A stretch of 36,132 nt of DNA from Bacteroidales bacterium. Its GTDB lineage: Bacteria > Bacteroidota > Bacteroidia > Bacteroidales > WCHB1-69. A model generated the notes under the pieces. That model did no database searches. It worked only from the letters and a program-made list of their open reading frames with translations, and had not been told where the DNA came from. Below, piece after piece: positions 5,037-17,690 of the stretch. The position numbers were made by a program, and so were the translations under genes. The stretch covers positions 1 through 36,132 of the forward strand of contig JAFXTE010000052.1 in NCBI GenBank assembly GCA_017525245.1, in the 5' to 3' direction. Position 1 is the stretch's first letter. Every line of letters begins with the position of its first letter.

Positions 5037-5192
5037 TCACTCGTTCTTGTTCAGTATGACCAGTGCGCCGATGACGCCCGGCACCCATCCTGCGCAGGTG
5101 AGGATGAAGACGATGAGCACGGACCCGCATCCGCGGTCGATGACGGCCAGCGGCGGGAAAATGATGGAGAGGATGACGCGGAAAATGGACAT
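5037..5192 (-). CDS. Pmp3/YqaE family small membrane protein
   Basis: A 51-residue protein starts at the ATG at 5192. It has two hydrophobic helices (about 5-22 and 26-46) around a short turn. The family signature is clear: FPPLAVIDRGCGS, where the family normally has FPPLGVFL..G, then LIVFILTCAGWVPGVIGALVIL and a charged end NKNE. Members (UPF0057) are tiny membrane proteins linked in yeast and bacteria to membrane potential and stress; the molecular role is unsettled. A TACTTTTG box at 5216-5223 gives it its own promoter. Confidence 0.85.
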   Translation of the reverse strand: MSIFRVILSIIFPPLAVIDRGCGSVLIVFILTCAGWVPGVIGALVILNKNE

Positions 5193-5215
5193 AGCGGTTC
5201 GGTTTTTTGAATGGG

Positions 5216-5223
5216 CAAAAGTA
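5216..5223 (-). promoter_or_regulatory. Promoter -7 box of the YqaE-like gene
   Basis: TACTTTTG on the minus strand lies 24 nt before the ATG at 5192, in the short gap after the upstream membrane gene. No clear -33 element is visible. Confidence 0.4.
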
Positions 5224-5228
5224 CAAAA

Positions 5229-6122
5229 TTATGCTTCTTTATAGGGCATCCATTTCGCCAGAACCATTCCAACGAGGATGAACCAGCCTCCGCCGAGGGC
5301 GGCCAAGAGCGGGAACCACGGGAGCGCCTCGCAGGGCAGCAACGCCGGCACAATGGCGATGGCCAAAGCCGGGGCGAAGGGTTTGAACCGACGGAACAGC
5401 AGAAGCATAAGAGACACTGTCACAAACGTGCCCAATGCCAGCGGAAGGCCCCACCGATGATGGAGCAGCAGACAAGTGAGGGTGCCCAAGCCGGCGGCGG
5501 CGATGATGAGAGCCCAGATGGTCCACGGGCGTTCGCGGAAGCCGCTGCGGCGGTTGGAGAACTCGATCATAGTGACCACCAGAGGAGGCACTGCGAGAAA
5601 ACGGAGGGTGGGGTAGGGGAGGCAGAGGGTGACGGCCAGGGGGAGGCACACGGAGGCCGTGAGCAGAACCAGCTGGAGTCCTCCGAAGGGATGGTATTCC
5701 GTACGTTTCTCTTGTCGGAGCCAGCCTCTGCCGAGGGCCAGCAGCACCGAAATCACCAGTACGCAGGCGGGATAGAGCCATGAGGTAGTGCACACCAGCA
5801 CGGGCAGCATAGCCGCCGAAACGGTGGGGTACATATTGCACCGCACCAACCGCAGCAGTCCCATCACGATGACGAAAGCCAGCGCAAAGCGGACTTCGAA
5901 GCTGGCGGGCAGCAGCAGGTTGAGGGCCAGCCCGATGGTGGCCGCGGCCGTCAGGTAGAGGGGGATCTGCCATCCGCGTATGTTCCACACCGCCTTGGGC
6001 ATCAGCCAGAGTCCGACGCACAGCGCGGCCGCCTCGGGGAAGATGACCTCGCTTTGTCCCGAAACATCCGCCACAACCACCATCAGCGTGAGGAACAGCG
6101 CGACCGCAACATTCCGTTTCAT
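5229..6122 (-). CDS. HPP-like polytopic membrane protein
   Basis: The product has 297 residues from the ATG at 6122; another ATG at 6137 would add five residues. It is almost entirely hydrophobic, with about 8-9 predicted membrane spans. The opening (MKRNVAVALFLTLMVVVADVSGQSEVIFPEAAALCVG) and the TTSWLYPA segment resemble the HPP-family group, whose function is poorly known. This assignment rests on recalled resemblance. It follows the TSCPD gene by a short gap and is probably in the same transcript. Confidence 0.6.
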   Translation of the reverse strand: MKRNVAVALFLTLMVVVADVSGQSEVIFPEAAALCVGLWLMPKAVWNIRGWQIPLYLTAAATIGLALNLLLPASFEVRFALAFVIVMGLLRLVRCNMYPTVSAAMLPVLVCTTSWLYPACVLVISVLLALGRGWLRQEKRTEYHPFGGLQLVLLTASVCLPLAVTLCLPYPTLRFLAVPPLVVTMIEFSNRRSGFRERPWTIWALIIAAAGLGTLTCLLLHHRWGLPLALGTFVTVSLMLLLFRRFKPFAPALAIAIVPALLPCEALPWFPLLAALGGGWFILVGMVLAKWMPYKEA

Positions 6123-6148
6123 CGAGGAGGTGAGCATCAGGGGTTGTA

Positions 6149-6415
6149 CTATTTTTCGTGGGCGGCCTGTTTCAGCGATTCCAGTGCGCGGCAGAGCTGG
6201 TCGGGGCAGGAGGTGGGCTTCCCTCCGCAGCGGATGCCGTTGAGTTTTGGGATGACGTCGTCGATTTTCTGTCCGACGACCAGCCGGCAGATGCCCTGGA
6301 GGTTTCCGTCGCATCCGCCATAAAAGAAGACCTGCCGGATGACGCCCTCGTCATCGACGGTCACATCAATGAACTGCGAGCAGGTGCCTTGGGTTTTGTA
6401 GAGGGTGTGGGGCAT
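6149..6415 (-). CDS. TSCPD domain protein (TIGR03905 type)
   Basis: An 88-residue protein containing the name-giving TSCPD motif (KPTSCPDQLCRAL, about residues 66-78), with conserved Cys residues at TCSQF, GGCDGN, GICRL, IRCGG and SCPDQLC. The domain also occurs at the end of vitamin-B12-dependent ribonucleotide reductases and as this free-standing form; the free form has no assigned function. The Cys pattern suggests metal binding. It is the first gene of a likely pair with the downstream HPP-like membrane gene. Confidence 0.85.
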   Translation of the reverse strand: MPHTLYKTQGTCSQFIDVTVDDEGVIRQVFFYGGCDGNLQGICRLVVGQKIDDVIPKLNGIRCGGKPTSCPDQLCRALESLKQAAHEK

Positions 6416-6467
6416 AATTATGATTTTTATTTTTTCCCTTATTATTTATGTTATTCCTTTCTTTCCC

Positions 6468-8546
6468 TCAAATCTCCTTGTTATATAACATGCGTACGTA
6501 TTTGAGATTTAGCAATTCCCCATGTTTCATTTTACCTGCTATATTTATTGGGTTGTCGCCGAACGGGAAGAAGTGCCCTAAATAGAATTTCATTGCTCCG
6601 GATTTGGGATTGATTTTCATATCTGTTACCTCATAATATCCTCGCATGTCATACGAAACCATTGGCATCAGATATTTTATACTCATCAGACTAACCGCGG
6701 GAACCGCCTCCATGATATACTCTTTGGCATCTCCTGTATTATATTTGTTGTGATTCTTATCACTCTTTCTAACTACCGCAGTAATGATACATTTGCAATT
6801 TTCATCTATTGCAGGAGCAGTAACATGAAGTTGAGTTTGTTCTTCTGCACCAAACAACGTATTCGGATCCACGTCCAACTGGTCCTTGGGTATCGGGTGC
6901 CTATAGAAATACAAGTCAATCAGTTTAAACGTATCGGTATTGTCCACATTGCGGTCCAGCGCCAATGCCATGCAGTTGGTAGATACCGCATAAGGAGCGA
7001 ACACTTTGCCAAGTACTTGTTGGAAATTGTCGTGCAAGAATTGTTCTGCCTCATCTTGAACTTTCGGTTTGATGGCAAAGAAATTATACTGCGATTGGAG
7101 AACACTCTTGATGTTATCACGGAATATACTCCGGATTTTCTGAGTGTTCTCACCAGCACCTTGCACGTAGCACGCAAGCACAAAGAGGAAGTTTATATTA
7201 TATGCCTGCAATATCAGCGTATCCCGATCAAATAGACGGTTGTCAAAATGATACGATATCTTATAATTTTTACCGTCACTCATCGGCTCCAGTTGCAAGT
7301 TGGCATCATGGTAATTATTCAACTGGTTGGCTTGCAGATGTCCACGGATAAAGAAATTAGGCGTGATATTGTATCCCTCGGTCGTGTTGTCTCTGTATAG
7401 CAGGTTTTCCCGTTGGAACTCCTCTGGATTCTGGTTGAAAAAATCAATATTGTACTGGATAACGTTCTTGGCGTATGTGAACTGCTTGTAGATGGAGTTC
7501 GGACCGATGTCGTTGTCGTCTTTGTAATACTTGCTGTCACCGATGAAATAGATTTGTTTCTTGTCTTCTATCAGCGCGTTGTCGCGGTAGATATGGTCGA
7601 TTATCTTTCCGTCTTTTTGTGCTTTCAGTCCTCCTGATATATCACTATCTCCGATGAGCGAGTCAATCATATCTTCAAAGACAAGGTTGAACTCGCGAAC
7701 CAGCATAGCCTGTTCGTCGTCATTGTCTTTGCTTTGTACATACTGTGATTGCTCGAAGAACGTGAAAAGCAGGTTCCACAACTGCACCATCTCATCCGTG
7801 AAGTACTTGCGGCGATTTTGACGGAGTACACGAATGCCTTTTCCACTGTCTATCATGGATTGGATGGCCTCGGGTTTGAGCAAGTCGTACCCGAATGCCG
7901 GACGGACATTAAACTTGAATTCCTGAGCGAGATAGTTCAGTACTGAGTAAAACAGCACTATCAGCTCTTCATCGAAGTTAATGTCTTTCTGTTTGGTGTG
8001 CGGTTGAAGGTAAATAGGTACACCGTTTTGGATGAGTGCCTGTGTTCGGGAGATTGTTTTCTGCCAATGGATCTTGTTTTGTCCGGAGTGCTTGAGGCGG
8101 GTGATATAGGCAAACAGGTTCTTGTGCTCTTTGTCAAACTTCAGCAAGGAAAGCACAATATCTATCATTGTCTCGCTTCTCGGACCTTGGTGCGAAACCA
8201 CGTTCTGCAATATCTCCGATTCTTCTCCTAACTTGTCTTTGCGTTGGAAATAGAGTTTGATAGCGCGGTATATCCATACGGAAAGGCTGAACACATTGGC
8301 TTTATGCTCCGGCTTGAGGTTGTCGAAGTCGATAATCTCTTCTGGATCGTATTCACCAAAGGCTTTGCCGTCGATGATGAATACTTTCGGCAGGATAAAC
8401 ACCATGTCCGGAATCTTGTGTGATAGGAAATAACCCACATAGGGTATCTTGGCTTTCCCGTCACGCAGTTCCGTGAAATAGTGCGGGTCGAGTATGGCAC
8501 TCAACCTGTCCTTTGCGTAGCCGTATTGCTCAATGAGGATTTTCAT
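6468..8546 (-). CDS. LlaJI-type restriction endonuclease subunit (McrC-like partner)
   Basis: This 692-residue protein starts at an ATG that overlaps the stop of the McrB-like gene (ATGA), the usual coupling of McrB/McrC and LlaJI pairs. A PD-(D/E)xK core is visible: IEDKKQIYFIGDSKYYKDD, with Asp337 and Lys339 as the D-x-K end and acidic residues (VFEDMIDSL, about 290-297) upstream. In the LlaJI family this subunit cuts DNA and the partner NTPase drives translocation. With the methyltransferase at 13.7-15.0 kb it would form a methylation-sensitive restriction system. Its specificity cannot be predicted. Confidence 0.8.
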   Translation of the reverse strand: MKILIEQYGYAKDRLSAILDPHYFTELRDGKAKIPYVGYFLSHKIPDMVFILPKVFIIDGKAFGEYDPEEIIDFDNLKPEHKANVFSLSVWIYRAIKLYFQRKDKLGEESEILQNVVSHQGPRSETMIDIVLSLLKFDKEHKNLFAYITRLKHSGQNKIHWQKTISRTQALIQNGVPIYLQPHTKQKDINFDEELIVLFYSVLNYLAQEFKFNVRPAFGYDLLKPEAIQSMIDSGKGIRVLRQNRRKYFTDEMVQLWNLLFTFFEQSQYVQSKDNDDEQAMLVREFNLVFEDMIDSLIGDSDISGGLKAQKDGKIIDHIYRDNALIEDKKQIYFIGDSKYYKDDNDIGPNSIYKQFTYAKNVIQYNIDFFNQNPEEFQRENLLYRDNTTEGYNITPNFFIRGHLQANQLNNYHDANLQLEPMSDGKNYKISYHFDNRLFDRDTLILQAYNINFLFVLACYVQGAGENTQKIRSIFRDNIKSVLQSQYNFFAIKPKVQDEAEQFLHDNFQQVLGKVFAPYAVSTNCMALALDRNVDNTDTFKLIDLYFYRHPIPKDQLDVDPNTLFGAEEQTQLHVTAPAIDENCKCIITAVVRKSDKNHNKYNTGDAKEYIMEAVPAVSLMSIKYLMPMVSYDMRGYYEVTDMKINPKSGAMKFYLGHFFPFGDNPINIAGKMKHGELLNLKYVRMLYNKEI

Positions 8547-9763
8547 TTAGAGGCAACTTCCAAGTAATCCATGAACTGTTGCAATGTCTCTGTCGCTTGG
8601 TCTCCGTATAGGTCTTTGAATGTGAATTTGCTTAATACCTCTTTGCCGTCAACGGTTGTTTTTCCGTAGAAGAAGTATTTGTTGTTTTCCGTCTCGTCAC
8701 GCAGCACCTCGTACCAAAGGTAGAACATTACTTTGCTCTTGAAACCTTTTTCATCGATGGAGTGTTTGATGAAGAAGTTACCCATTTGCTTGTCTTCGCT
8801 CTGGGTAAGATCGAAAATCTTCTCATTCACTTTTTTGATGAACTCAACCCACGAATAGGACTTGTCGCCGATTGTGATGTCAAACTCGCCCGATTTGATG
8901 GTTGTGTCATAATTGATGGGCACGTATTCCCATTCCCAACGGCGTTTGAAAGCACTATCCATGGGGAACAGACTCTGGTCGGAGGTGTTCATGGTGGCGA
9001 GGATGTGCAGGTTTGCCGGCAGGCAAAGCTTTCCGTCTTGGATGCCTTCGGAATCCACTCCTAATTTTTCCTTAAGGTATTGTGCCAAATCCTTGTCTGC
9101 TTTAATTTTGTATTCAGAAACGCCTCCCTTTCTGTCCAATAGTTGGAACAGGTCGCCAAATATCTGTGCACAGTTACCACGATTGATTTCTTCAATGACC
9201 AGATAGGTCGGTTGATCGGAATTTTTATACGCATAAACGTACGCATCGGTAAAGACTTGTGGCACAAATTCATATACTATCTCTTCATCTTTGCCGGTCA
9301 AAGTCTTTTCCTCTTTGGATGTCGGTTTCATGGTAGGCTTGTAACATCCTACGAAAGAAGCATAATCCGTATCAGGATGGAAAGTCATACGGAACACATT
9401 TGGCAAATCCACTTCGTCTCCGTTATCCAACAATTCTCCGGTTAGTTTCTTAACTTCATGGCTTTTGCCTGTGCCGGGGGCACCGTAGAAGATTTGCTGG
9501 AGAGGGGAGTCTTGTGCAGACGAAAGCCTTGATTTTTGTAAAAACAATTCTTTCTCTAACAAAGCAATCAGTTGCTGGGCTGATTCTTTATCCATTTGGA
9601 TTGTTTGTGATGCACTGTCTGGATTTTGACGTGATGAACTGCCATAAGTCTCTATTTGAAACAATCCTTCCTCTATATTAACGGAATATGTAGCTTTTAC
9701 TATATCTTGTTTTCTAGGAGACTTCTCTTTTTTCTCACAATCAGAAACTATTATTCTTGCCAT
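8543..9763 (-). CDS. McrB-like AAA+ NTPase of a restriction system
   Basis: This 406-residue protein has a P-loop GAPGTGKS (94-101), a Walker B region LVIEEINRGNCAQIFGDL, and MNTSDQS, the variant of the McrB MNTADRS signature associated with GTP-dependent motors. The first 85 residues are a separate N-terminal part that may carry DNA or target recognition. McrB-type rings use NTP hydrolysis to translocate DNA and activate the nuclease encoded by the next gene, with which this one overlaps by 4 nt. It is separated from the upstream 90-aa gene by 198 nt, so the pair may also have its own transcript. Confidence 0.88.
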   Translation of the reverse strand: MARIIVSDCEKKEKSPRKQDIVKATYSVNIEEGLFQIETYGSSSRQNPDSASQTIQMDKESAQQLIALLEKELFLQKSRLSSAQDSPLQQIFYGAPGTGKSHEVKKLTGELLDNGDEVDLPNVFRMTFHPDTDYASFVGCYKPTMKPTSKEEKTLTGKDEEIVYEFVPQVFTDAYVYAYKNSDQPTYLVIEEINRGNCAQIFGDLFQLLDRKGGVSEYKIKADKDLAQYLKEKLGVDSEGIQDGKLCLPANLHILATMNTSDQSLFPMDSAFKRRWEWEYVPINYDTTIKSGEFDITIGDKSYSWVEFIKKVNEKIFDLTQSEDKQMGNFFIKHSIDEKGFKSKVMFYLWYEVLRDETENNKYFFYGKTTVDGKEVLSKFTFKDLYGDQATETLQQFMDYLEVASK

Positions 9764-9778
9764 GTTTTTATAGATTTA

Positions 9779-9880
9779 TCATCGACTTTCGAGTATTAGC
9801 TCTTGAATTGTCTAAACAATTTGTTTGACTTTTGATATTTTATCTGATACTTCGTTTATATCTTTATCTACTGTAGCCAT
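9779..9880 (-). pseudogene. Possible small ORF with in-frame TAG before the McrB-like gene
   Basis: From an ATG at 9880 the frame reads MATVDKDINEVSDKISKVK, continues to a TAG at 9814-9812, and then stays open for TIQELILESR until TGA, 15 nt before the McrB-like ATG. Composition on both sides of the TAG looks coding. It may be a decayed small gene or chance. The rest of the 198-nt gap shows no clear promoter. Confidence 0.25.
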
Positions 9881-9961
9881 ATATTAATTCTAAACTGTAT
9901 AATTCATACCATAAGGAAACCAACGCATTCTGCAAACAAATTCACGAATGTATATTTCATT

Positions 9962-10234
9962 TTACCTGCCATTATTTAGACCATTGATAATGCTTAATGC
10001 TATCGCATAAATATCTTCATTTTGTTTTTCGCAAATGTCAAAGCATTTACTTGTCATTTCATTAAGAGCCTTTGCTTCGTTATTGGAGAACGCTTTTTCT
10101 CCGTTCTTTTTCATGTAATCGGAAAAATCTTCGTCCGGATGAAATCCCATACCAAGAGCCAACCCGTTCGGCTCTATCACATATCGCAAGAATTGTTCAA
10201 CATCTTGCATCGTTTGTGTCTCAAAAGTTTTCAT
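9962..10234 (-). CDS. Small conserved-context protein of the defence operon, unknown
   Basis: A 90-residue acidic, helical-looking soluble protein with no signal peptide or membrane segment. I recognise no family. It starts 17 nt after the stop of the receiver-domain gene and ends 198 nt before the McrB-like gene, so it is probably translated from the same mRNA as the methyltransferase, GHKL and receiver genes. Position makes it a candidate accessory or regulatory subunit; that is inference only. Confidence 0.65.
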   Translation of the reverse strand: MKTFETQTMQDVEQFLRYVIEPNGLALGMGFHPDEDFSDYMKKNGEKAFSNNEAKALNEMTSKCFDICEKQNEDIYAIALSIINGLNNGR

Positions 10235-10251
10235 ACTATACCATATTTGGC

Positions 10252-11169
10252 TTATTTAGCGAATCCTAACATCTGCTTGAACAAGTCCGAGTATTTTCGA
10301 ATGTTAAGTCTAATACGTTTGAAGTCTTCATCACTAAATGCAGCATCTCCTTTCCGAGTTTTTAACACTTCTTTCCCGTCGATACTCTCACTTTTGCAAT
10401 GTGCCAATTGATTCCTTATAGAGATAATATCCTCATTGTAGTCTTCTAAGAAATTAGCCTTTCGTGGTATATAAAGATCGGAGGGAATAATATAATTTAC
10501 GGCTTTTGCCATAGAATATGACTCAAGGTCTGGGATAATTTTGTCTATTGACAAGCTTTTCCAAACATGACAACACATTTTGCTTTTTCCGTTACAATTT
10601 TCCAATAAATCCTTGATTCTTTGCTCTTGGGATTTTGTTATATGTTTATGAAATAATTGAGTTTTTTCTTCTGATGCAGAGAGAACATAATACTCATTGA
10701 GGATGTCCGACATCAAAACATCCAATTCGCTCACTTCTGCCATAACGAGACCACGAAGATTATTGAGGTCTTGAACTTTGTGAATCGTGGTTTTGATAAT
10801 GGAATTTACTTTGTTTATGAACAAGTCTTTATTTCTGCTGGCAAAATATACTCCTTCTAAATCTAAATCATGAGCCCGTTGTTTGATTTTCTGCAAACCA
10901 TCCGCAGAATAGAAAATGACATCGGTATATATTTCTCTATCACGAATGTTCTTTATGAGCACATCGCCGGTAGGCTCTGACTCCAGATTTAAGTCCATTA
11001 AGATTAAATCGTAGTCATTAAACATTATTGCATCATTCTGCTTGCTTGCAAAAGTTCTATCATAATCGAAACCATATTGTTGTTCAACCAACTCTTTGAT
11101 TTCTTCTTCGATTGACTCTGCCCAGTCAGAATCATTTTCCACCCATAATATTTTATACTTCAGCCTCAT
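10252..11169 (-). CDS. Receiver-domain protein with C-terminal HEPN-like region
   Basis: 305 residues. The first 120 or so form a response-regulator receiver: acidic pocket ILWVENDSD, phospho-acceptor Asp59 in LILMDLNL, and Ser88-Ala89 at the switch position. No DNA-binding helix-turn-helix follows. Instead there is a helical domain of about 180 residues containing RNQLAH (Arg252 to His257), the R-x4-H arrangement of HEPN ribonucleases. The gene starts 2 nt after the stop of the dual-GHKL gene, so the two are a natural signalling pair. I infer that phosphorylation could switch an RNase-like effector. The R-x4-H motif is short, so the HEPN call needs structural support. Confidence 0.72.
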   Translation of the reverse strand: MRLKYKILWVENDSDWAESIEEEIKELVEQQYGFDYDRTFASKQNDAIMFNDYDLILMDLNLESEPTGDVLIKNIRDREIYTDVIFYSADGLQKIKQRAHDLDLEGVYFASRNKDLFINKVNSIIKTTIHKVQDLNNLRGLVMAEVSELDVLMSDILNEYYVLSASEEKTQLFHKHITKSQEQRIKDLLENCNGKSKMCCHVWKSLSIDKIIPDLESYSMAKAVNYIIPSDLYIPRKANFLEDYNEDIISIRNQLAHCKSESIDGKEVLKTRKGDAAFSDEDFKRIRLNIRKYSDLFKQMLGFAK

Positions 11170-11171
11170 AT

Positions 11172-13742
11172 TTAGAACGTTATAACAAATTTAACACCTT
11201 TGTTTTTATAGTTGGAATGATAGGTCTCATCAATACTTATCGTTCCTTGCAATTCTTTTTCCACAAATTGCTTGATATTATACAAACCAAGTCCTGATCC
11301 ATTTGTTGTCGTTACTCCCTTTTCAAAAATAGATGCATGATCCGAGATTGTTTCGTTAAGACCTTTGCCATCATCGGATACCTGCATACTAATATGATTG
11401 TCTGCTAGTGGCGCAAAAACGACTTCAAAGTGTCTGGCTCCTGCCTTAATAGAATTGGAGAGTAAATTATCAATTATTAGGTTCACCTCCAATGGCCTGA
11501 AACGCATTGTTTTTTGGCACCCATTTGTAACACAACGGAACTGAATGTCCTCATAATAATCTGGCAAAACGGATGTGAGGTATTGGTTAACGAATTCCAC
11601 TACATCTGCTTGAAGGATTTCTCCTTCCACATTGAAGTTCGCCTTTGAGGCAAACATTGAGATAGATACTATTTTTTTGTTGGCTCTCGCTATTCTTTCT
11701 ACAGCACGGCTCATTGTTTCTTTTTCGGCACTGCTTGTCTTTAATTGACGGATGAGTGTGTCTAAAGAATTCTGAATAGTAAGGGCATTCAAACGAATAT
11801 CATGGTGATAACGGATAATTCTATCCTTGTCCAAATTCTCAACAGATTGCAAAAACAAATTCTGTTTTTTCTTTTGATTTAATTCTTTTTCCGCTTTTTC
11901 TCTCTTCGCCGCTTCCTCTTTCTGCTTTTGTTCTGCTTCTTTCCGTTTAATCTCTTCTTCTCGTCTTTTTAGTTCTGCTTCTTTAGCTTGAATTTGGGCC
12001 AATCGCTTTGCTTCTGCTTCTTCTTGTCTTTTTCTCTCTGCTTCTCTTCTGCGTTCTTCCGCCTCTTGTGCTTTGCGTTCCGCTTCCTCTCTTTTTTTCT
12101 CCGCTTCGATGGCTCGTTGTTCGGCAGCTGCTTTTTCTTTCTGTAGTTCTCTGATGTGTTTCTTGGCCTCGTCAATGCTTAGGAGCATATTTTCATCATT
12201 TGTGCTTTCTGCGATTTTTTCAAGATCATTGATGAATTGAGGCTTAATGTTTTCAATTTCAGATTGATCTGAAAGGATATTTGCAAGTTCTTTGTTATAA
12301 GATATAATCTCAACGTTTTTATCTCGGGCAAGAGACTTTATCAACTGAACGAAATCTATTTTACTACCTATACTAGACTTTAGCAAGTATTCTGGAGTAT
12401 CATTGTCTTTGTCGTTGTCTTGTAATTCTTTCCGTTTGGCTTTGGCCTCTTCCTCTGAACTAAAATACTCTTTTTGCAAAAAAAGGCCTCCCCATAAAAC
12501 TCCCATAACATAACGTTCCAATCTCCGATGAGCAGTTTCAAACAACTTAAATAATTGTTGTGAAGTTTTAGTCTCAATCAAACCACCATCACGACTAGAC
12601 ACTTCTTTCAGCTCATCAATCTGATCTGTAATTACGTCAACTCTACCAAATAAATCTCGTGTTCCAAGAAATCGTTTGTTACCTTGTTGTGCTCTATAAT
12701 CTAAGCCCCAACTATCATCACCTGTTTTTCCAAAAGGCATTATTCTAAAACCATTTCTGAACAAAAAGATGGAACCATAATTTACAGGTTCAATCCCCAT
12801 TAGTCGAGTAAAGTTGTTTTTGGCAGAACGGTTTAGATAATAAAGATTGACTCTTACGTCCTCAAGTTTGTCATATAAAAGGTTCTTTTCTCGAATTTCA
12901 TACATATTAACACCACGGTCAGAAAGAGTGGTAAATATATATTCTTTAGTCAACTTTACATCAATCTGGGTGGTTTTTAGATTAAGAATGCTTGTTATGC
13001 TATTTTTTAAAACACCATTGACCAATTCTCTCTCGTGTTTCCCGTTTTCAATGCACCTCTTGTCTTCAGCAAGTTCACTTTTACATTTTATCTCTATGCT
13101 AAAATCGTTTGTTTCAGCAAAAGGATTAATAAGTTTTTCCAGCGAATGCTTGAGATCCAGTAACCGCTTTCTGGTCCATGGCATTTTTTCATCATTCAAT
13201 CTACTGATTTCAAGAATCGTCCCATTAGTTTTATTATCTGGGAAAATCGTATCATATTCTGTTACTGAATCATGACCGACATTTATTTTGGCAAATTCAA
13301 GATTTTGGTCAATTTCAAAATCCGTCCATTTAACTTGAATCACTTCAAGTGTGTTTGAAGAAACACTTTTGGTTTTCAACAACAACTCTTTTCCGAGTCT
13401 ATCGCAAGAAAAACGTCCAATCCCCTTGGCCCCTGCATAATGACGGCGGATGTTATCTCTATAAGATTTCTGCTTTTCATCAGAATTGGCATCTTCAGTG
13501 CCGTCTTTTTTTGCAGAATAACCCAAAAACAACCATTTGTTTTTTATGTCATATAACGACATGCCTTTGCCATTATCAGCTATGATAATTTTATCCTCAA
13601 GGAACTCTATTACTACTTTTTTGGCGTAAGCATCATAGGCGTTTTTTACCAACTCAAATATGGCTACGTTATCGTTGATAATCAAATCTTTACCAACAAG
13701 ATCTTTTAGAGCCGAACTGATTTTAAACTGCAGTTGTTCCAT
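11172..13742 (-). CDS. Dual-GHKL ATPase: MORC/Hsp90-like plus histidine-kinase-like
   Basis: 856 residues with two Bergerat-fold ATPases. The N-terminal one has the N-box FELVKNAYDA (29-38), DNGKGM (56-61) and the GAKGIGRFSCDRLG lid, as in MORC/MutL/Hsp90-type enzymes. A highly charged coiled coil of Glu/Lys/Arg (about 520-640) follows. The C-terminal part resembles a sensor kinase: an H-box with His646-His647 (RYHHDIRLNAL), the N-box NLLSNSIKAGA, SDDGKGL, IFEKGVTTTNGSGLGL. The gene overlaps the end of the methyltransferase gene by 20 nt and precedes the receiver gene by 2 nt. MORC-like GHKL proteins in restriction loci were described by Iyer and Aravind; the added kinase half points to a phosphorelay. 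Confidence 0.82.
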   Translation of the reverse strand: MEQLQFKISSALKDLVGKDLIINDNVAIFELVKNAYDAYAKKVVIEFLEDKIIIADNGKGMSLYDIKNKWLFLGYSAKKDGTEDANSDEKQKSYRDNIRRHYAGAKGIGRFSCDRLGKELLLKTKSVSSNTLEVIQVKWTDFEIDQNLEFAKINVGHDSVTEYDTIFPDNKTNGTILEISRLNDEKMPWTRKRLLDLKHSLEKLINPFAETNDFSIEIKCKSELAEDKRCIENGKHERELVNGVLKNSITSILNLKTTQIDVKLTKEYIFTTLSDRGVNMYEIREKNLLYDKLEDVRVNLYYLNRSAKNNFTRLMGIEPVNYGSIFLFRNGFRIMPFGKTGDDSWGLDYRAQQGNKRFLGTRDLFGRVDVITDQIDELKEVSSRDGGLIETKTSQQLFKLFETAHRRLERYVMGVLWGGLFLQKEYFSSEEEAKAKRKELQDNDKDNDTPEYLLKSSIGSKIDFVQLIKSLARDKNVEIISYNKELANILSDQSEIENIKPQFINDLEKIAESTNDENMLLSIDEAKKHIRELQKEKAAAEQRAIEAEKKREEAERKAQEAEERRREAERKRQEEAEAKRLAQIQAKEAELKRREEEIKRKEAEQKQKEEAAKREKAEKELNQKKKQNLFLQSVENLDKDRIIRYHHDIRLNALTIQNSLDTLIRQLKTSSAEKETMSRAVERIARANKKIVSISMFASKANFNVEGEILQADVVEFVNQYLTSVLPDYYEDIQFRCVTNGCQKTMRFRPLEVNLIIDNLLSNSIKAGARHFEVVFAPLADNHISMQVSDDGKGLNETISDHASIFEKGVTTTNGSGLGLYNIKQFVEKELQGTISIDETYHSNYKNKGVKFVITF

Positions 13743-14979
13743 ATCGTAGCATATATAATAAAATTATTCCCGCTTGCTCTGCAAACAGCGGCGGAATAGC
13801 ATTGCCAACTTGGGTATAGCGAGGCACTTCCACCTTGCGCATCTTGCCGCCAGTGGTGTATTTCTTCTTGATTTCGTACCAATCCGGAAACGATTGGATG
13901 CGGGCACATTCACGCACAGTCATGATACGGGGTTCGCAGTAATGCAGGTAGTCATCAGGATGACCGGTAATGGTTGGCGAAACAGCGTTCGGGTCCAAAA
14001 CGGTAATTCCACGCTGCATAATTCCCCATGGTTCTCGAGCTTTTCCGTCAATTCGTTTGCCGCGTTGCGGATAATCAGCCAATAATCGTTTGTAACAATC
14101 CATTTTCTCCGGTTTGTGCTTTGCGAAACTATGACTGTCGGCTATCTCATGTGTCTTGGGATAATCCCCACGCATCAGTTTCTCGTATGCCGTCAGTTTT
14201 TTGTTGCCGTACTTTCCGGAATAAAACCCTTTGCGATCCGGACTCGGCTCTTCTCCATTGGAACGCAACAGATCGGAAATGGCTTCCTTTAGTGTTACGG
14301 TTGGCTTCAATCCTTTTTGCGACAAGAAGTTGTCTCGGTTTTCCATCAATAGATTTTCGAAATTCTCGGGAGAACCGACATCTTTTCGAACACCCACTAA
14401 GATGAAACGCTTGCGACGTTGCGGAACACCATAATTGGAAAAATCTATGACGTGGGGCTTGACATTGTACCCTAATTCTTCCAAACCGCATATCACTTTA
14501 TGTGAATATGGCTCAGCACCGTCTTTCTTGTTCTTGTCGAAAGCGTATGTAAAGCCTTTCACATTCTCGAAAAGAATCATCTTGGGCTGCACCAATTCAA
14601 TGAACTTGATATAAGAAAATACCAATTGGTTACGGACATCTTCCTCTACACGTTTACCTGCCATGGAAAAACCTTGGCACGGAGGGCCTCCAGCAACCAA
14701 ATCCACCTTACCTCTCAATGATTTCAACTGTTTCGGATACTTTTTCAATACCTCATTAATATCATGCTCAGTTTGCGGCAACCAATCTGGCCAGTTGAAG
14801 TGTTTTTTGTTGTCAATCAGATTATATTTCAGCGTTTCAAATGCAAAAGCATTTTTTTCAATGGCGAACAAGCTTTCCCATCCAGCTTGATACAAACCAA
14901 GCGACAACCCTCCCGCTCCCGCGAAAAGGTCTATCACCGTGGGGGTGTCACTCGCTCTATGTGTTTGATTTGCCAACAT
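13723..14979 (-). CDS. DNA (cytosine-5) methyltransferase
   Basis: 418 residues with the C5-methylase motifs in order: motif I DLFAGAGGLSLG for S-adenosylmethionine, motif IV GGPPCQGFS with the catalytic Cys, motif VI ENVKGF, motif VIII PQRRKRFILVG, and the C-terminal QVGNAIPP of motif X. It transfers a methyl group to C5 of cytosine in a recognition site set by the region between VIII and X, which cannot be predicted by eye. As first gene of the operon it would protect the host from the LlaJI/McrB-like nuclease downstream. A TATTTTTG box lies 26 nt before the start. Confidence 0.93.
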   Translation of the reverse strand: MLANQTHRASDTPTVIDLFAGAGGLSLGLYQAGWESLFAIEKNAFAFETLKYNLIDNKKHFNWPDWLPQTEHDINEVLKKYPKQLKSLRGKVDLVAGGPPCQGFSMAGKRVEEDVRNQLVFSYIKFIELVQPKMILFENVKGFTYAFDKNKKDGAEPYSHKVICGLEELGYNVKPHVIDFSNYGVPQRRKRFILVGVRKDVGSPENFENLLMENRDNFLSQKGLKPTVTLKEAISDLLRSNGEEPSPDRKGFYSGKYGNKKLTAYEKLMRGDYPKTHEIADSHSFAKHKPEKMDCYKRLLADYPQRGKRIDGKAREPWGIMQRGITVLDPNAVSPTITGHPDDYLHYCEPRIMTVRECARIQSFPDWYEIKKKYTTGGKMRKVEVPRYTQVGNAIPPLFAEQAGIILLYMLRYGTTAV

Positions 14980-15049: not shown

Positions 15050-15183
15050 TTACAAAATATCCTCCGCCACTTCTTCCTCGCTTATCGAATACTTCCCCAT
15101 CAACCGCTGCACCAGCCAAATAGCCTCTTCCTTGTCGAGCTTGTAACCCAACACGTCGTAGTAGGCGGTTGCTGCGTGGTTCT
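15050..15183 (-). pseudogene. Truncated duplicate of the C-terminus of the gene at 16731
   Basis: Read on the minus strand this gives HAATAYYDVLGYKLDKEEAI followed by WLVQRLMGKYSISEEEVAEDIL and a stop. It is nearly identical to the last 40 or so residues of the 205-aa protein at 16731-17348 (ending KYGLSGEEIATETK). The homology stops abruptly at 15183, so this is a 5'-truncated copy without a start. Confidence 0.8.
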
Positions 15184-16730: not shown

Positions 16731-17348
16731 TTATTTTGTTTCCGTCGCTATTTCCTCCCCACTCAAGCCATACTTCCCCATCAGCCTCTGCACCAACCAA
16801 ATAACCTCTTCCTTGTCGAGCTTGTAGCCCAACACGTCGTAGTAGGCGGTTGCCGCGTGGTTCCACCTGTAGGACATCACCGGCCCGGGCTCATGGCCTC
16901 TCACAAGAAAGTCGGAGAAGTCGGGCACTTTCTGCCATTCAGGTAGTGTGCCATCGGCTTCGATGGTCAGTTCCAGATAGTCGCCGAAGCCCATATCGTA
17001 CGGGGGAATCAGGGCGCTGGGGACGTAGCCTTGGATCTGCCATAGCGGCTTCATGTCATTGTCATACAAGGTGTAGGTGCCTTCGTCGCGCACTTTTGCC
17101 CAAACATGCAAATAGCCATTGTTTTCGTCCCAGTCCTTCAGCTTCTTCTCCCTTAAATCTATCCAGAACTCCAGTAATTTGGTGCTCTCATCGTACATCG
17201 GGGGCACGAAAGATTCGTCACACTCTAATTTTGGCATCAGACCATCGTCGAATGAGATTGACGTGTAATTGTCGCGTTTGTCGTAAGGGATGGTAATACG
17301 GAGGAATCTGGCCTCGTTTTCAAGTTTTTCTTTTAATGTTGTACTCAT
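16731..17348 (-). CDS. Conserved hypothetical protein, 205 aa
   Basis: A soluble acidic protein with no signal peptide or membrane segment. It is rich in Asp, Glu and Tyr, with a Trp-rich middle (MKPLWQIQGYVPSALIPPYDMGFGDYLEL) and the ending NHAATAYYDVLGYKLDKEEV. I do not recognise a family. It lies 44 nt upstream of the DUF1016 gene in the same direction and may share a transcript. Part of its C-terminal end is duplicated 1.6 kb downstream (15050-15183), so this gene has taken part in a local rearrangement. The promoter at 17484-17511 would give a leader of about 130 nt. Confidence 0.75.
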   Translation of the reverse strand: MSTTLKEKLENEARFLRITIPYDKRDNYTSISFDDGLMPKLECDESFVPPMYDESTKLLEFWIDLREKKLKDWDENNGYLHVWAKVRDEGTYTLYDNDMKPLWQIQGYVPSALIPPYDMGFGDYLELTIEADGTLPEWQKVPDFSDFLVRGHEPGPVMSYRWNHAATAYYDVLGYKLDKEEVIWLVQRLMGKYGLSGEEIATETK

Positions 17349-17483
17349 AGGTTTATGTTTTTGGTTTATAAATAGTGGTCAAATGACCGATTGTTTTTCC
17401 GATGTTCTTTGTCTTCTTGTTTTCTTTCAAATATTTTGTTTTCAATATATTATGGCCACAAACAAACATTTGTCTGCTGTTTG

Positions 17484-17628: not shown

Positions 17629-17630
17629 TT

Positions 17631-17690
17631 TCATCGCCTTTCATCGCCTTTCATCGTCTCATCGTCTCATCGCCTCATCGCCTCATCGCC
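17631..17690. repeat. Short tandem repeat overlapping the ThrE stop codon
   Basis: Units of TCATCGCCTT (10 bp), followed by about five 8-bp units of CATCGCCT or CATCGTCT type, run into the last codons of the exporter gene. The stop codon of that gene lies inside a unit. Confidence 0.7.

Follow-up and report, generated by a model that had tools for sequence, protein, structure and literature searches.

Six genes read in one direction, among them a C5 cytosine DNA methylase, a kinase and receiver pair and a restriction pair of McrB/LlaJI type, raise the question of whether such an array encodes a single restriction system or separate systems placed side by side. The array was analysed within a stretch of 36,132 nucleotides, hereafter the window, in which it occupies positions 6468..14979 of the minus strand. 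Recomputed coordinates, strand and gaps were exactly those of the single-direction array described in the first-pass annotation. The methylase gene (P0001, 13723..14979) overlaps by 20 nt the gene of a dual-GHKL protein (P0002, 11172..13742), followed after 2 nt by the gene of a receiver-HEPN protein (P0003, 10252..11169) and, 17 nt further on, by a gene for a 90-aa protein (P0004, or orf90, 9962..10234). A gap of 198 nt precedes the genes of an McrB-like AAA+ protein (P0005, 8543..9763) and of a LlaJI-type nuclease subunit (P0006, 6468..8546), which overlap by 4 nt. On balance, the operon is read here as two systems side by side, a triad formed by the first three genes standing apart from a restriction cassette.

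Upstream of the array, on the same strand, lies a gene for a DUF1016/YhcG PDDEXK nuclease (P0008, 15499..16866; Pfam YhcG_C 2.6e-35) with a 94-bp direct repeat on both sides, which is probably a neighbour and not a member of the triad.

Recurrence of the triad

At least 33 loci from other records were collected, their genes being called as longest ORFs and labelled by iterated HMMs; sampling is biased to proteins with the two peptide patterns of the contig scan. Two records, L025 and L087, look like one, and L025 was excluded from the counts over 35 and 31 rows reported below. The GHKL gene is found directly 5' of the receiver-HEPN gene in 33/33 of these loci, and the methylase gene directly 5' of the GHKL gene in 28. 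Because the same gene order recurs in 28 of the 33 loci from other records, the triad is not a chance association. The co-occurrence initially predicted for the GHKL and receiver homologues therefore holds for the methylase and fails for McrB/LlaJI, a LlaJI homologue being located near just one triad (L066) of the 33 within the contig stretches examined, several of which end at contig ends. Two viral contigs carry methylase, GHKL and receiver-HEPN genes, with no McrB or LlaJI gene within the stretches examined. Judged by gene order and sequence, the conserved unit is thus the triad of C5 methylase, dual-GHKL protein and receiver-HEPN protein, with the methylase as constant partner.

Triads were also found next to ordinary genes. 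Among the neighbours scanned, nuclease genes (HNH_2, SRA-like HNH, McrBC-type and LlaJI) adjoin some triads, and an endonuclease may therefore take part in those. An order-wide profile search gave matches passing 1e-5 in 78 of 393 genomes, near full-length in only three, the window's genome included; the remaining genomes, in which the match is to the receiver half of some other protein, were excluded from the count. P0003 gave no match against plasmids (E 1e-5) or phages (E 1e-3).

The kinase and receiver pair

The methylase matches Pfam DNA_methylase (4.7e-58), and the PPCQ motif is kept in 29/29 triad methylases among the matches listed. P0002 matches both HATPase_c (2e-19) and HATPase_c_3 (3.2e-18), and is made up of a MORC-like ATPase (residues ~1-420), a coiled coil and a histidine kinase core (~636-856); a fold search with its model returned Hsp90 and SMCHD1 as well as HK853 as structural matches. 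The GHKL ATPase motifs are invariant in the MORC-like half, to which the SMCHD1/Hsp90 fold matches belong. Alignment and models agree on a DHp-type helix pair, carrying a conserved histidine, beside the CA domain. This histidine, H647 (codon 11802..11804, minus strand), the predicted phospho-acceptor, is located on the first of two neighbouring predicted helices (637-668 and 674-699), and is invariant in 31/31 class A GHKL proteins among the matches listed and in 13/13 other GHKL proteins. Within the alignment of the matches listed, the following position is occupied by D, Q or H, where E or D is usual, and the ATP motifs of the kinase are invariant although their surroundings diverge.

P0003 matches Response_reg (PF00072) at 7e-6, with 26.6 bits, under the Pfam cutoff of 30.2. 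Its predicted phospho-accepting aspartate, D59 (codon 10993..10995, minus strand), is kept in 35/35 receiver proteins among the matches listed, in whose alignment no prominent beta-5 lysine was seen. In the second half, which is helical in the model, the sequence RNQLAH (R252-H257; 10399..10416, minus strand) provides the Rx4H motif of HEPN domains, and the R, N, A and H of RNxxAH are found in 35/35 receiver-HEPN proteins among the matches listed. When 34 C-terminal halves were scanned singly, the three most-matched Pfam families were all HEPN, each in 7/34, with best E values of 1.8e-6, 1.5e-4 and 7e-4; the best HEPN match of the window's own P0003 is weak (HEPN_RiboL-PSP, E 0.021). Fold searches with the whole model listed receiver-type matches only, over its first part, and a profile search of the HEPN half against the PDB gave seven chains at E 0.67-10, with no HEPN protein among them. 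The HEPN label, at first a guess based on the motif, gains support from the motif's invariance and from the Pfam families over the C-terminal halves, and the output of P0003 looks like a predicted HEPN RNase. The phosphorelay-like character assigned to the pair is likewise borne out by the invariant His, Asp and kinase motifs and by the HK853-like fold: going by sequences and models, P0002 and P0003 look like a true phosphorelay.

Control of neighbouring R-M genes by a kinase and receiver pair has been offered as a speculation in the part of PMC8011034 available to us. The pair would then act on the expression or activity of these genes, with HEPN as a binding or dimerisation module and not an RNase. 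Such a role would be in keeping with the constant methylase partner, with receivers being regulators as a rule and with the timing that R-M genes require; however, the invariant RNxxAH is what is expected of a catalytic HEPN, no DNA-binding domain was found in P0003 by Pfam and triads also stand next to ordinary genes, and the regulatory role is considered unlikely.

The restriction cassette

No match to the orf90 protein was obtained at E <=0.01 with the models of Pfam, PADLOC or NCBIfam. Its gene is present in two of 104 family genomes, that of the window and G029, a genome of the same genus; given this distribution, the idea of a conserved antitoxin was dropped. P0005 is R1.LlaJI-like (AAA_5 5e-10), matches PADLOC REase_II models (3e-48) and is similar to solved McrB chains (6ut3, 3e-13; 6hz4, 8e-9). 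P0006 is R2.LlaJI-like, with an RE_LlaJI match (2e-5) that scores 24.4 bits, just over the cutoff of 23.6; the two proteins form a pair of LlaJI type, made of an McrB-like R1 and a PD-D/ExK R2. Residues 72-403 of P0005 are 87% identical to the G029 protein, whose 197-residue N terminus is replaced in the window by about 70 residues of its own. Simple truncation of the gene by decay is not supported, given this separate N terminus and the R1-like proteins of 337-343 aa on record in the consulted part of PMC1459862.

G029 has the flanks, orf90, McrB and LlaJI in common with the window, and between the same flanks a methylase/GHKL/receiver set unlike that of the window. Sequence comparison thus slightly favours orf90, McrB and LlaJI as a separate restriction cassette, located at a shared exchangeable site.

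In one integral six-gene system, McrB/LlaJI would cut unmethylated DNA, and the GHKL and receiver-HEPN proteins would sense infection or back up restriction. The common strand and tight spacing suggest such a unit, as do LlaJI genes beside other receiver classes (G009 and G029) and the L066 triad, and McrB-type genes beside several further receiver-class or triad loci. Nevertheless, the near absence of LlaJI from the triads collected, its complete absence from both viral-contig stretches and the different set found with the same cassette in G029 lend no support to the first-pass annotation, which took the pair for a layer added to McrB/LlaJI; the gap ahead of McrB also argues against integration, and a six-gene system is distinctly unlikely.

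Exchange of the output half

GHKL relatives were detected with about 80% identity in the sensor half and less than 30% in the kinase half, and those with a divergent kinase half carry another receiver and a caspase-like protein. Because the sensor half is so similar, the kinase half so different and the receiver another one, the sequences indicate that the output half of the GHKL system is swapped as a module. The kinase half and the receiver co-vary. Co-variation of the MORC half with the methylase was not supported (partial Spearman 0.10, vs 0.16 for the kinase half, over 29 class A triads among the matches listed); the only sequence support for it comes from a class B methylase fragment in G043, with 0.89-0.91 identity to the four nearest class A methylases, where the median is 0.73. 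In the tree of C-terminal halves, class B still falls within the class A clade (0.74).

For the class B and C partners, which have no Pfam match, the designation caspase-like is based on invariant HG and C, and comparison of the class C partner with caspase-8 gave an E of 0.77 only. Class B, D and E receivers, also devoid of a Pfam receiver match, were identified by visual inspection and from their position.

The MORC half is the best-conserved part of P0002 (mean identity 0.49, vs 0.36 for the kinase half), and paraMORCs are linked to R-M loci in the portion of PMC2292703 consulted. Both points would suit a MORC-type DNA clamp or loop-former, in which phosphate transfer is vestigial and the receiver-HEPN protein is recruited by binding, as a subunit. 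Invariant H647, D59 and kinase ATP motifs amid diverged surroundings, and the co-variation of kinase half and receiver, point the other way and leave this proposal improbable.

Comparison with known systems

The general class, a C5 methylase with a HATPase_c_3 plus HATPase_c kinase and a receiver, is already known, since a sister family, two-component-like pairs of HEF_HK (PF19191) and Response_reg_2 (PF19192) proteins, has been described next to C5 methylases (Bellieny-Rabelo 2021, PMC8011034); the triad is a variant of it, as far as the consulted part of that paper extends. Both sets combine the two ATPase domains and a conserved His in one soluble protein, with an adjoining receiver that has a conserved Asp, and a C5 methylase usually upstream. 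Neither PF19191 in P0002 nor PF19192 in P0003 was matched at E up to 1, the only Pfam matches being HATPase_c and HATPase_c_3 in the former and PF00072, below cutoff, in the latter; as a control, L030_4 matches PF19192 at 2.5e-26. In addition, the window's receiver carries HEPN, whereas the receivers in the consulted part of PMC8011034 are reported without other known domains, and no mention was found there of output-half exchange, of partners resembling caspases, of carriage by phages or of triads standing alone. The claim that no characterised system has this whole set thus stands for the set, within the literature searched, and not for the class, published in 2021.

Other likenesses are more limited, as judged from the accessible parts of the reports. 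MORC/paraMORC ATPases of R-M loci (Iyer 2008, PMC2292703) share the GHKL ATPase half with intact motifs and the R-M neighbourhoods, but in P0002 this half is joined to a histidine kinase core, and the protein is coupled with a receiver. In R-M loci, HEPN-paraMORC fusions and other HEPN RNases (Anantharaman 2013, PMC3710099) likewise show a HEPN RNase coupled with a GHKL ATPase, by direct fusion and not, as in the window, via a separate receiver and a kinase half. LlaJI R-M (O'Driscoll 2006, PMC1459862) features an McrB-like R1, a PD-D/ExK R2 and 5mC methylation, but has two 5mC methylases, where the six-gene cluster has one C5 methylase, extra relay genes and an R1 whose N terminus differs from that of its G029 relative. 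HATPase and REC are among the domains of defence systems predicted, and not validated, by DefensePredictor (PMC13092281), a likeness at the level of domain names taken from a legend.

Among the matches listed, no Detocs-labelled PADLOC model was found for P0002 or P0003. Detocs provides phage defence by a histidine kinase and a receiver-bearing effector, as in the window's pair; to our knowledge, it has neither methylase nor MORC half, and its sensor and effectors differ from those of the window.

Proposed mechanism

The reading that we hold somewhat likelier than its opposite is that the first three genes form an autonomous, modification-linked phosphorelay defence, separate from orf90, McrB and LlaJI. 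The methylase would mark the cell's own DNA, and the MORC-like half of P0002 would monitor DNA or methylase state. Upon encountering unmarked or disturbed DNA, the C-terminal histidine kinase would phosphorylate H647, from which the phosphate would pass to D59 of the receiver; this would switch on the HEPN domain, with RNA cleavage and arrest of phage growth as an abortive or dormancy-type immunity. By analogy with R-M, a relay to an RNase would stand in for the endonuclease. Against this reading weigh the unusual residues after H647, the lack of a prominent beta-5 lysine, the weak HEPN match of the window's own protein and the PDB profile search with no HEPN chain, the failure of methylase distance to track the MORC half preferentially in class A, the nuclease genes next to some triads and the place of class B in the tree of C-terminal halves.

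A mainly addictive role, in which loss of the methylase would let HEPN kill the cell and so maintain the cassette in the population, phage defence being secondary, is the least probable of all, although the constant methylase link, the triads on viral contigs and at an exchangeable site, and the small HTH-type ORFs found, like R-M control genes, 5' of the methylase in 6/35 loci (a sequence cluster of which one member was scanned) fit it, and sequence cannot separate it from phosphorelay defence, the relay used being the same.

More broadly, and tentatively, His-Asp phosphorelays may serve as the restriction arm of modification systems. The state of DNA or methylase would be read by a MORC half, and the kinase half, itself exchangeable, would phosphorylate interchangeable shutdown effectors (a receiver-HEPN RNase, a receiver plus caspase-like protease, and others), by which bacteria and some phages would link self-marking to programmed shutdown with no need for a DNA endonuclease.

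If true, this would join DNA modification systems and two-component signalling, fields with little contact. If the triad protects without DNA cutting, many methylases regarded as 'orphan' or as parts of incomplete R-M systems may be the marking arm of signalling-based immunity. Modularity could be tested directly on the output half, which is swapped naturally at the coiled coil, and the MORC half provides a bacterial setting for asking what MORC ATPases sense, a question shared with their eukaryotic relatives.

Recurrence of a three-gene core

The six minus-strand genes of the first-pass annotation were present as described when their coordinates were rechecked. Domain scans identified the first as a C5 methylase and the second as a protein carrying HATPase_c_3 and HATPase_c domains (the dual-GHKL protein, with a MORC-like ATPase half and a histidine kinase half). 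The third (receiver-HEPN) matches a receiver domain under the cutoff, the fourth is a 90-aa ORF (orf90) given no assignment by the domain scan, the fifth is a McrB-like AAA+ protein and the sixth a RE_LlaJI nuclease, scoring barely over the cutoff.

Species genomes were scanned with a profile built from three receiver-HEPN proteins, which revealed at least 33 loci. Those listed are mostly from Bacteroidota, and also from Campylobacterota, a Patescibacteria, an Ignavibacteria and a Mycoplasmataceae MAG, as labelled in the records. In all 33 a GHKL gene lies directly upstream of the receiver-HEPN gene, at a spacing of -17 to +7 bases. In 28 of them the methylase gene directly precedes the GHKL gene; in four of the remaining five (L076, L083, L087, L088) the GHKL gene is incomplete and close to the end of the contig, and the fifth (L067) has methylases downstream. 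At the Polaribacter locus L082, counted among the 28, the methylase is split into two ORFs of 216 and 179 aa, by sequencing error or because it is broken; the GHKL and receiver-HEPN genes are uninterrupted.

Neighbouring genes were surveyed up to 10 kb on each side of the 33 loci, contig ends cutting some of the stretches. A LlaJI homologue was found only near L066; McrB profile matches occur only near L066 and L074, and McrBC-type genes were recognised by Pfam also near L094 and L096. Other neighbours include an HNH_2 nuclease (L067, by domain scan; L071, L088 and L098, by homology), a BpuJI_N/NOV_C gene (L067), an HNH protein weakly matching SRA (L092), genes judged by eye to be Vsr-like (L020, L025/L087), a HhH-GPD glycosylase (found by scan in L084 and by homology in L092), a small HTH gene (scanned in L080, with five homologues) and, near two triads, NB-ARC proteins that are homologous to each other and about 880-900 aa long (L069:12721-15351, L091:3573-6284). 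A calcineurin-like phosphatase gene directly follows receiver-HEPN in 4 of the 33 loci, overlapping it in three (L073:10875-11576, scanned; L074_10, L079_11 and L095_13, by homology); among solved structures it comes closest to an Ap4A phosphatase (9.6e-15) and the metallophosphoesterase 4j6o (2.3e-12), which serves as the phosphatase in a bacterial RNA-repair enzyme. By domain scan, the nearest or next downstream gene is an ordinary one at seven loci (L072, L080, L082, L086, L090, L093, L097), coding for a polyprenyl synthetase, a beta-lactamase fold, ribosomal protein L13, an outer-membrane barrel, a class I methyltransferase, a DEAD helicase and a short-chain dehydrogenase; the downstream gene of L085, the eighth scanned, gave no domain match. 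Since the neighbours vary and can be ordinary genes, the conserved core is, as judged from gene content, the triad of methylase, dual-GHKL and receiver-HEPN genes, which can occur with no recognised restriction gene next to it.

Conservation of the active sites

Among 31 GHKL proteins, E30, N34, D56, G58, G60, K106, G107 and G109 of the N-terminal ATPase and H647, N763, D790, G815, G817 and G819 of the kinase half are invariant (window numbering). Between residues 418 and 746 just five positions are at least 90% conserved, H647 being one of them. All 35 receivers keep D59, as well as R252, N253, A256 and H257 of the HEPN domain; positions 11, 12 and 88 are E/D, D/N and S/T throughout. The methylase PPCQ motif is invariant (29/29). 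Two features call for caution: H647 is followed by D, Q or H, and the receivers show no beta-5 lysine that stands out.

Output classes and exchange of modules

A search with the window's GHKL protein across 104 genomes of its taxonomic family gave matches in 15, the window's genome among them, and gene maps revealed several output classes behind dual-GHKL proteins. Class A has receiver-HEPN; classes B and C have a receiver (recognised by eye in B, Response_reg 3.4e-7 in C) and a further, separate protein whose HG and C are invariant, putatively caspase-like at the motif level only; D and E have longer receiver-like proteins, recognised by eye, and F the published Response_reg_2 type. The arrangement of dual-GHKL, receiver and HG/C protein was seen at L021, L022, L023, L024, L026, L027 and L029. 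H647 is kept in all 13 GHKL proteins of classes other than A, and D790 is replaced by N in all three of class F.

Over 62 pairs, the identity between class A and class B GHKL proteins averages 0.51 for the N half (range 0.37-0.83) and 0.25 for the C half (range 0.20-0.31); the corresponding means within class A are 0.49 and 0.36. The N-half tree nests both class B proteins within class A (supports 0.92 and 1.0). For the C half, the tree places them with a low support of 0.55, still inside an A + B clade (0.74). When the GHKL protein of L066 is compared along its length with that of genome G043, identity drops near residue 550, inside the coiled coil, from 0.72 to 0.22. Among class A members, distances between receivers track those between kinase halves once the MORC half is controlled for (partial Spearman 0.43); with the roles of the two halves swapped, the value is -0.04. 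The methylase had been expected to track the MORC half and did not (0.10, against 0.16 for the kinase half). Methylases are less alike in their target-recognition regions (mean identity 0.39) than in the parts on either side (0.62 and 0.75), and the marked sequences therefore probably differ between triads.

Exchange is also seen at the window's own site. A genome of the same genus, G029, shares both flanks (5037-6416 and 16770-17380, 94% each), the LlaJI-side DNA (7072-9505, 87.6%), orf90 (89%) and McrB (87% over residues 72-403). Between the common parts G029 carries an N6/N4-type methylase, a GHKL protein (27% identical to the window's at the best stretch), a receiver-like protein of 413 aa, a second C5-type methylase and a NOV_C protein. 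Similarity ends at 9505, just before the McrB P-loop, and at 14902, after some 26 codons of the methylase gene; these codons and the promoter-side DNA are common to the window's C5 and the G029 N6/N4-type gene (L035:2290-3666). Among 40 genomes of the genus, 32 and 26 contain matches to the two flanks, many of those in one flank's search being to a short dispersed repeat; a repeated element at about 17629-17690 has copies over many contigs of the window's own genome and of the genus. A GHKL gene is present in 6 of the 18 stretches examined at this site, where G009 has class C with LlaJI, G038 class C without it, and G040 methylase and McrB without GHKL. From these comparisons, the site is one that exchanges modules, the window's six-gene set being one assembly. 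Upstream of the six genes, a DUF1016/YhcG gene (16866-15499, by domain scan) is bracketed by a 94-bp direct repeat (15089-15182 and 16770-16863, 88/94 identical); as the repeat stretch is present once in G029, the gene appears to have been inserted, with duplication of one end.

Triads on viral contigs

A scan of viral contigs revealed two loci, with no McrB or LlaJI match in the stretches examined. L120 has methylase, GHKL and receiver-HEPN genes in this order (8.2 of 55 kb examined); four neighbours scanned gave no PHROG match, and the viral assignment is that of the sequence collection. In L119, a GHKL gene cut at the contig end is followed by receiver-HEPN, a polynucleotide-kinase 3'-phosphatase homologue (L119:2697-3140; PDB 4xrp 7.9e-19, 1ltq 3.3e-15) and a methylase, adjoining portal and large terminase genes. 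Such phosphatases act in the repair of RNA ends, and the homologue would thus fit an RNase output.

Relation to described systems and proposed mechanism

HEF_HK/Response_reg_2 pairs next to C5 methylases are described in the available part of PMC8011034, where a two-component-like system linked to R-M and paraMORCs is proposed; the window proteins do not match their Pfam models. The accessible portions of PMC3710099 and PMC13092281 report, respectively, HEPN-paraMORC fusions in R-M loci and HATPase and REC among the domains of predicted defence systems. No description of the gene set was found in the literature searched, whose scope left out preprints and most subscription papers, nor in the available parts of PMC2292703, PMC12137116, PMC7159879, PMC12839542, PMC11090510 and PMC1459862.

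The likeliest mechanism, which we favour by a small degree, is a modification-linked phosphorelay switching on an RNase. Two of its parts are likelier than the whole: a phosphorelay quite probably exists, and the HEPN domain is, with good probability, a nuclease. Unmarked or foreign DNA is suggested only tentatively as the trigger, the weakest step of the proposal; these gradings reflect judgement and were not computed.
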